Shown here piece after piece: positions 24,510 to 28,841 of a stretch of 40,886 nt of DNA. The stretch comes from Pseudomonadota bacterium (GTDB taxonomy: Bacteria > Pseudomonadota > Alphaproteobacteria > SP197): contig JAQCLG010000015.1 of assembly GCA_027592745.1 (NCBI GenBank), positions 1-40,886 on the forward strand, written 5' to 3'. The notes under the pieces were generated by a model. It searched no databases, was not told where the DNA came from, and saw nothing but the letters and a program-made list of their open reading frames with translations. A program made the position numbers and the translations under genes. Numbering within the stretch: the stretch's first letter is position 1; each line of letters starts with the position of its first letter.

Positions 24510-25661
24510 ATGGCCGAGGACGACGGCAAGCACGGCGACGGTGTCTGGCCCCGCGAGAGCGAGGTCGGTCGCTGGACCGACACCTACTTCAACCGCACGC
24601 GCACCACGGTGCAGGCCTTCGGCAATGTCGAGGTGACCTATGCCGTGTTCATGCGCCGCCCGGTGGTCTTTGCGCCGCGTCTGATGATCGGCTGGCTTGA
24701 GGCCATGGCCTCGGCGCGGGGCTCCAAGTTCCGCATCGAGCCGCAGTTCAACGAGGGCCAGTGGGTCGGCGCCGGCGAGCCGATGGTCTATCTCACCGGT
24801 TCCTTCGCCGACCTCGTCGACCTCGAGACGCTCTACCTGCAGAAGCTCGGCCCGGCCTGCGTGGCCGCCTACAACGCCTACACCATGTGCGTCGATCTGC
24901 CCCACACGGGGTTCCTCGCCATGGATGCGCGCCATTGCGCGGGCACCGAGATGGCCGAGATCATGGCCTATGCCGCCTCGGTCGGTTCGGCGCGCGCCCG
25001 GCGCAAGGCCGATGCCGTGGGTTTCGTCGGCAACGCCACCGATGCCACGGCCCATTACTTCGGCAACGAGCGCGGCCTGGGCACCATGCCCCACGCCCTG
25101 ATCGGTTACGCCGGCAGCACCGTGCGCGCCGCCGAGATGTTCCACGAGGCCAATCCGGGCGTGCCGATGACCGTGCTGGTCGACTACTTCGGCCAGGAGA
25201 TCTCCGATGCCCTGGAGGTCTGCCGCCGTTTCCCCGACCTTGCTGCCTCAAGCGAACTTTCCGTGCGCCTCGACACCGCCGGCGGGCGCTACGTCGAGGG
25301 CCTCGACACGCAGTCGAGCTACGCCGTCATCGAGCGCAACGAACCCTATGCCATCCGCGGCTACCGCTCCGAGACCGAGCTGCGCTACCTGATCGGCACC
25401 GGTGTCTCGGCCGCGGCCATCTGGCATACCCGCGAGGCGCTCGACGCGGCCGGCTTCGGCAAGGTCAGGATCGTCGCCAGTTCGGGTTTCAGCGCCGCCA
25501 AGTGCAAGGTCATGGCGATCGCCAAGGCGCCCATCGACGTCATCGGCACCGGCAGCTACCTGCCCGACACCTGGTCCGAGACCTACGCCACCGCCGACAT
25601 CGTCGCCTACGACGGCAAACCCCGCGTCAAGGTCGGCCGCGAGTTCCTGCTTCGCGGCTGA
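24510..25661 (+). CDS. pncB: Nicotinate phosphoribosyltransferase
   Basis: The 383 residues have the NAPRTase layout. An N-terminal TDTYFNRTR (Y/F-DLYxLTM-like entry) is followed by EPQFNEGQWVGAGEPMVYLTGSF, LDARHCAGTEMAEIMAY-like sequence with the conserved R-x2-G, and VDYFGQEISDAL. SVRLDTAGGRYVEG and IVASSGFSAAKC then form the phosphate-binding strands. It makes nicotinate mononucleotide from nicotinate and PRPP in the Preiss-Handler route, whose last enzyme (nadE) lies 1.5 kb downstream. GGGGGAGG precedes the start. It is somewhat shorter than E. coli PncB and closer to the compact family found in many alphaproteobacteria. Confidence 0.88.
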   Translation: MAEDDGKHGDGVWPRESEVGRWTDTYFNRTRTTVQAFGNVEVTYAVFMRRPVVFAPRLMIGWLEAMASARGSKFRIEPQFNEGQWVGAGEPMVYLTGSFADLVDLETLYLQKLGPACVAAYNAYTMCVDLPHTGFLAMDARHCAGTEMAEIMAYAASVGSARARRKADAVGFVGNATDATAHYFGNERGLGTMPHALIGYAGSTVRAAEMFHEANPGVPMTVLVDYFGQEISDALEVCRRFPDLAASSELSVRLDTAGGRYVEGLDTQSSYAVIERNEPYAIRGYRSETELRYLIGTGVSAAAIWHTREALDAAGFGKVRIVASSGFSAAKCKVMAIAKAPIDVIGTGSYLPDTWSETYATADIVAYDGKPRVKVGREFLLRG

Positions 25662-25672
25662 CGGGCGCCGGC

Positions 25673-25690
25673 CGGGCGCCCTTGCGCCCG
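25673..25690 (+). terminator. Hairpin just after pncB
   Basis: CGGGCGC (25673-25679) and GCGCCCG (25684-25690) form a 7-bp stem with a CCTT loop, 11 bp after the pncB stop. No T-run follows. The remaining bases up to 25846 show no gene and, in particular, no TRAP binding-protein (dctP) remnant that I could recognise. Confidence 0.35.
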
Positions 25691-25846
25691 AGCAGCAAGC
25701 GCGACACGATGCCATCCGTCAGGTGATGGCTCCGAAGAGGGCCGCACCGTTGGATGCGGCGCGGGGGCGACGGCGGGGGCGATGGCAGGATTCCATGACC
25801 ATGGGACGGTCGACCTCGCGGCGCGGGTCGCCTGGGGAGTGAGGGC

Positions 25847-26365
25847 GTGAGCCTGCTGGCGACCTATGTCCGCGTCGTCGAGGCCTGGGCCTACGGCATC
25901 GGCCGCTTCGCCATGCTGCTGCTCTTCGCGCTGATGGCCGTGCTGCTCTACGGCGTCATCGGGCGTGCCGGCTCGGCGCCGCCGATCTGGACCGACGAGA
26001 TGTCCCAGTTCCTGCTGCTGGGCTACTTCATGCTGGGCGGCGCCTATGCCCTGCAGCTCGGCTCAGCCGTGCGCATGGACCTGCTCTACACGCGCTGGTC
26101 CGACCGGACCAAGGCCGCCGTCGATGCCGTCACCATCCTGACGCTGCTGTTCTACCTCGGCGTCCTGCTCTGGGGCGGGGTCGAGAGCACGCAATACGCC
26201 ATCGAGACCGGCGAGTGGCGCCGTGGCCTCTGGCGCCCCTACATGTGGCCGGTCAAGGTGATGATGGTGCTCGGCATCGTCCTCATGATCCTGCAATGCA
26301 CCGCCTTCCTGATCCGCGACCTGGCCCGCGCGCGCGGACGGCCGCTGCCGGAAAGGGAGGCCTGA
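25847..26365 (+). CDS. TRAP transporter small permease (DctQ family)
   Basis: This 172-residue membrane protein has four hydrophobic segments (about 17-38, 48-68, 88-112 and 131-153). It carries the DctQ hallmarks: an aromatic EEMSQFLL-like segment after TM1 (WTDEMSQFLLLGYFMLGGAYAL) and R-x-D-LLY. The GTG at 25847 is preceded by GGGGAG at suitable spacing. The stop overlaps the ATG of the large permease (TGATG). A working TRAP importer needs DctP, DctQ and DctM. DctM is broken here and no DctP is present, so this subunit is probably non-functional even though its frame is intact. Confidence 0.85.
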   Translation: MSLLATYVRVVEAWAYGIGRFAMLLLFALMAVLLYGVIGRAGSAPPIWTDEMSQFLLLGYFMLGGAYALQLGSAVRMDLLYTRWSDRTKAAVDAVTILTLLFYLGVLLWGGVESTQYAIETGEWRRGLWRPYMWPVKVMMVLGIVLMILQCTAFLIRDLARARGRPLPEREA

Positions 26366-26685
26366 TGCCGGCCGAGTACATCGCCATCCTGATGTTCGGT
26401 TCGATGCTGACGCTGATGCTCACCGGGCAGCGCATGTTCGGCGTGATCGGTTTTGTCGCCGTGGTCGGCGCGATCTGGCTCTGGGGCGATCGGGGCGGCT
26501 ACGACCTCGCCTTCGCCCAGACCTTCAAGGTGATGGGCTGGTTCCCGCTCATCACCCTGCCGATGTTCATCTTCATGGGCTACGTGCTCAGCGAATCGCG
26601 CCTGATTGCCGGTCAGCGCGCCGATCAGGCGGGTCAGCCCGTCCCAGTGGTAGATGCGCTTGATGCCGCAAGCCTCGGGCATTGA
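26365..26685 (+). pseudogene. Truncated TRAP transporter large permease (DctM), N-terminal fragment
   Basis: The first about 83 residues (MPAEYIAILMFGSMLTLMLTGQ ... LPMFIFMGYVLSES) are the canonical start of a DctM permease, which normally has about 430 residues and 11-13 membrane spans. Similarity ends around 26605-26612, directly after GYVLSESRLIAG. The frame then runs 24 more codons through antisense halogenase sequence to a TGA at 26683-26685. Everything downstream that should encode the rest of the permease is absent. It is translationally coupled to DctQ by TGATG. This is a 3' truncation by deletion or rearrangement, not a simple point mutation. Confidence 0.85.
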
Positions 26686-27023
26686 ATCATAGGCCACGAG
26701 GTTCATGCGGAAGGGGCTGGTGTGGTGCACCGGATGCTCGGGCGGAAGCTGTCGAGACGATCGCGGTAACGCCCGTAGGCGATGTCTTCGTGGTCCTGCC
26801 GATGGGCCAGCGGCAGCAGCGCGGCCGCTTCGGCCGCCAGGCGGGCGGCCACGCCGGGCCGCAGGAAACCCGGCAGCGAACAGATGCCGGTGGCTTCCAG
26901 CCGCGCGCGGCTTTCCGCGATCAGCGCACGGGCCTGCGGGCTCTCGAGATCGGCGACGGGATAACGCGCGAGGCCCACGAGGCCGGATATCGCCGCGCCC
27001 GCCGCCCCATGTTCATCGACCAT
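26610..27023 (-). pseudogene. 5' fragment of a HalD/BesD-family halogenase/oxygenase gene, frameshifted and truncated
   Basis: The minus-strand ATG at 27023 opens a frame with RYPVADLESPQARALIAESR and GICSLPGFLRPGVA, closing at 26703. The family continues in another frame: LPPEHPVHHTSPFRMNLVAY then IYHWDGLTRLIGALTG. So a one-base-type shift lies about 26745-26775. The sequence then stops at the DctM junction near 26610. This matches the N-terminal half of HalD/BesD-like Fe(II)/2-oxoglutarate enzymes (free amino-acid halogenases and related oxygenases), as recalled from the family. The iron-binding HxG/D...H half is missing, so no activity is possible. The assignment rests on pattern similarity. 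The gene is tail-to-tail with truncated dctM. Confidence 0.65.

Positions 27024-27185: not shown

Positions 27186-28840
<1,655 letters not shown>

Positions 28841-28841
<1 letters not shown>

Follow-up and report, generated by a model that had tools for sequence, protein, structure and literature searches.

A probable replacement scar between pncB and nadE in which a Paracoccaceae-type TRAP dctQM fragment abuts a truncated HalD-family oxygenase gene

The window analysed was a stretch of 40,886 nucleotides, contig JAQCLG010000015.1 of a draft alphaproteobacterial assembly of 263 contigs (G000). An intact pncB-like nicotinate phosphoribosyltransferase gene (24510–25661, plus strand) formed the left native flank. 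It showed 88% nucleotide identity to a genome of the same genus (G001), with homology ending at 25654, and its matches to the NCBIfam nicotinate phosphoribosyltransferase models were below their cut-offs. An intact nadE (27186–28841, plus strand), which scored above the cut-off of NF010588, formed the right native flank, and nucleotide identity to G001 was about 84% from 27125 onward. Overall, the flanks on both sides were native, with 84–85% identity to G001. Four features lay between these genes: an orphan stretch of 185 bp (25662–25846) that holds the left breakpoint; dctQ (25847–26365, plus strand), an intact open reading frame for a TRAP small permease of 172 aa; the first 80 codons of dctM (26365–26604, plus strand); and the 5' half of a frameshifted HalD-family Fe(II)/2OG oxygenase gene (26606–27023, minus strand), corresponding to about residues 19–154 of the 288-aa sister protein in G001. 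The origin of the 185-bp stretch was sought by blastn and tblastx against all compared loci, with zero similarity found.

The breakpoint between the two truncated genes (26604–26606) was located by alignment. DNA homology of dctQM to its relatives stopped at 26601–26604, and from 26606 onward the DNA aligned with the sister HalD-family gene. The join reads CTG (26602–26604, dctM codon 80), a lone A at 26605, and then TTGCCGGTCAG from 26606 on, which is identical to the sister HalD-family gene. The join is thus essentially blunt, and a search for microhomology found zero shared overlap. There was no clear step in base composition across the join, and no mobile element was seen adjoining the scar. 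A preliminary description of this DNA had placed the end of dctM similarity at 26605–26612, after 83 residues, which was right within a few bases, and had a minus-strand HalD-type gene losing its 3' half at the same point, as was found. It was also correct that both C-termini are missing, given that intact relatives have about 436–440 aa (DctM) and 271–288 aa (HalD family). Its estimate of at least about 1.5 kb lost fits the missing coding sequence, of which dctM accounts for about 1.07 kb and the HalD-family gene for about 0.4 kb.

DctQ matched PF04290 with an E-value of 4.6e-24, and the DctM fragment was identified by 63–89% amino acid identity to the N-termini of intact DctM proteins. The closest relatives were a Paracoccaceae group, with amino acid identities to the scar proteins of 71–78% for DctQ and 75–89% for the DctM N-terminus, whereas DctQ proteins of the organism's own family showed just about 53–56% identity to the scar DctQ. 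At the nucleotide level, the dctQM piece was 80% identical to Pararhodobacter SW119, compared with 67–69% to family relatives. In a tree of 69 loci, the scar DctQ/DctM N-terminus nested in Paracoccaceae, within sets of 3, 6 and 9 rows supported at 99/90, 95/88 and 96/88, respectively, and the TRAP genes native to the family fell in another part of the tree, far from it. Judged from these comparisons, the dctQM piece is a horizontally acquired fragment of Paracoccaceae type. Donor-type homology began at 25851–25863, i.e. at the dctQ start, and therefore donor DNA upstream of dctQ is absent. The titles of several of the nearest TRAP records point to saline or alkaline samples.

One donor-type locus (L126) has the gene order dctQ-dctM-dctP. 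Open reading frames for a glutamine-synthetase-like enzyme, an aldehyde dehydrogenase and an iron alcohol dehydrogenase were observed 3' of its TRAP genes, and L126:6946-15734 also holds those for an N-formylglutamate-amidohydrolase-like protein and an RpiR-type regulator; all were named by eye from the translations, except DctM and DctP, which were assigned by Pfam. These neighbours suggest that an amine or amino alcohol is taken up and catabolised.

A functional TRAP transporter would have a complete DctM and a cognate DctP, and neither was found at the scar. The remainder of the scar dctM was sought across G000 and not found, the other DctM matches being different paralogues. There was no dctP next to the scar, and none of the donor type was found elsewhere in G000, where the four DctP-like genes were of other types, with at most ~28% identity. 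The frames of dctQ and of the dctM stub are intact. The plus frame stays open to 26685, so that dctQ could be accompanied by a 106-aa product in which the DctM N-terminus is read into antisense HalD-family sequence (26365–26685), and a minus frame is open at 26239–26730. A functional fusion, or a new minus-strand gene, is nevertheless very unlikely: long spurious open reading frames are common at 65–70% GC, the fusion was present in no relative, and 80 residues out of a permease of ~440 would form no channel. It is scarcely credible that this lineage has kept the dctQ-dctM' remnant as an expressed gene whose product serves, for instance, as a membrane peptide with a new role.

The oxygenase stub matched the same-genus orthologue with 71% identity over residues 26–118 and 80% over residues 106–154. 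The two halves lay in different frames because one base is missing near 26749–26752, where the sister gene reads GGCGGAAAAC and the scar copy GGCGGAAGC; a frameshift at 26745–26775 had been proposed before. The stub lacks the 3' half of the gene, including the catalytic HxD and metal-binding region, and this half was not found across G000, the other HalD-family matches being different paralogues. The stub fragments alone matched no Pfam model, and the intact sister protein passed PF23169 (HalD) with 56.9 bits against a cut-off of 26. In a tree, the stub paired with the G001 protein (100/98), and both fell within the group of syntenic genes (100/99, 7 rows). On this basis, the stub is assigned as the orthologue of the HalD-family genes found between pncB and nadE in relatives. 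Its dN/dS of 0.27–0.38, obtained from few codons (140), was similar to the 0.28 of intact orthologues, so that relaxed selection, and with it any sign of long decay, was not detected by this measure.

The join was seen in one genome, and in no second genome among those compared. Together with the draft state of the assembly, which is possibly metagenome-derived, this raised the question of whether the 26604/26606 join, and perhaps the left join too, is an artefact in which strains or organisms were merged, the HalD-family gene or the TRAP operon being intact in the real genome. The mostly saline or alkaline record titles of the closest TRAP relatives are compatible with a donor sharing the sample. 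However, the foreign piece is just ~0.95 kb long between native flanks, which would take two wrong joins, or a single one between strains, and an assembler would have had zero shared overlap to follow. The stub also carries its own frameshift, as a dead gene would be expected to and a mis-joined intact gene would not. Given the native flanks, the missing overlap and the frameshift, mis-assembly was considered the less likely explanation and on the whole improbable, with a join between strains still conceivable.

To compare the pncB–nadE interval, pncB loci were read in 15 family genomes, as was the nadE-side contig of G013. In G001, the interval from pncB to nadE was without TRAP genes. Next to pncB it has a HalD-family gene on the minus strand, intact at 288 aa, with its 3' end running over the stop codon of pncB, and after that an EmrAB-type pair. 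A HalD-family gene was at the same place in three genomes of another genus of the family (G009, G012 and G015), and G013 had one beside nadE on a contig ending there. No TRAP gene was observed between pncB and nadE wherever both genes were in reach in these 15 genomes and the G013 contig. Since the interval of relatives holds a HalD-family gene and no TRAP gene, and since the stub groups with the syntenic genes, the HalD-family gene is the old resident.

Other genes were also observed in some of these intervals (L101:4483-7554 in G009, L103:3126-6277 in G015 and L104:2710-5397 in G013). All three contain a Methyltransf_7-type gene. A second 2OG oxygenase (DIOX_N) was assigned by Pfam in G009 and G015, and G013 has an open reading frame whose beginning resembles it. 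A HalD-family HxD oxygenase, a SABATH-type methyltransferase and a second oxygenase could possibly constitute a small-molecule tailoring cluster.

It was reported that HalD-type halogenases lack the carboxylate ligand, with Gly replacing Asp/Glu (HxG instead of HxD) and the site thus freed for chloride, and that putting Gly in at the ligand position is the key change converting a hydroxylase to a halogenase (PMC13244439). Every intact syntenic orthologue had HxD (as HVD, HYD or HFD), and so did each of the paralogues read whose sequence covers the motif; HxG was seen in none of them, and the scar copy lacks the motif region. The best PDB sequence matches of the intact sister protein were halogenase D and lysine hydroxylases. 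Because they carry HxD, the intact syntenic orthologues are best described as hydroxylase-like, not as predicted halogenases, and the earlier label of halogenase is not supported. The HalD-family genes here should accordingly be annotated as hydroxylase-like. G000 and G001 have about ten HalD-family paralogues each (e.g. at L066, L072, L074, L076, L080, L084, L086 and L088). Wherever the motif was read in these paralogues it was HxD, and such an expansion is unusual for a family named after halogenases.

The preliminary description had interpreted the locus as a long-standing TRAP importer beside a halogenase or oxygenase, perhaps for uptake and modification of a solute, lost in this strain by a single deletion. 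That both genes are cut at a single point, tail-to-tail, with missing ends totalling ~1.5 kb, would agree with this. But the intact cassette that it expected between pncB and nadE of sister genomes was in no relative examined, the two genes are of different ancestry by trees, and the orthologues carry HxD, not HxG. Moreover, TRAP loci of the scar type had no HalD-family gene beside them, and none of the 66 TRAP loci compared showed one in the stretches read. Such an origin is extremely unlikely. The two genes may have stood side by side briefly in the immediate ancestor, through insertion and not as a functional cassette.

We therefore regard the locus, with good though not full confidence, as a replacement scar, in which a foreign dctQM piece was inserted and joined to the HalD-family gene with loss of both ends. 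Relatives show the ancestral order: pncB (plus), then the HalD-family Fe(II)/2OG oxygenase gene converging on it (minus), then nadE (plus). Paracoccaceae-type dctQM DNA, whose horizontal transfer is shown by the tree, would have been inserted next to pncB, on the side facing the 3' end of the oxygenase gene, by a route that is inferred. Either this insertion or a deletion may have fused codon 80 of dctM with the oxygenase gene, midway along it, in a nearly blunt, non-homologous manner. In this way dctM would have lost its final ~1.07 kb and the oxygenase gene its final ~0.4 kb, and the stub would have been frameshifted after the join. The event would fit a fairly recent date because the dctQ frame is still intact. 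With more than 80% of the length of DctM gone and the oxygenase stub without its metal-binding half, neither product is predicted to work, and the locus is probably dead.

This type of scar is ordinary. It reflects routine genome decay and is a clear small example of how horizontal insertion and deletion break a resident gene; a transporter adjoining an enzyme at a scar is no evidence of a shared pathway. Compared with TRAP DctQ/DctM proteins (PF04290/PF06808) of the Paracoccaceae dctQ-dctM-dctP subtype, the scar is alike in its full-length DctQ and the identity of its DctM N-terminus, but differs in that DctM is cut at codon 80 and no dctP follows downstream. The intact sister protein matches the HalD family (PF23169; HalD, BesD and lysine hydroxylase 7JSD) with the 56.9 bits given above. 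Unlike the HalD and BesD halogenases with HxG, the intact orthologues have HxD as in lysine hydroxylases, and the scar copy is truncated and frameshifted. Compared with an ordinary pseudogene scar left by horizontal insertion and subsequent deletion, the locus is alike in its foreign fragment within native synteny and in its truncated and frameshifted resident gene, the sole difference being that the mobile vector is invisible.
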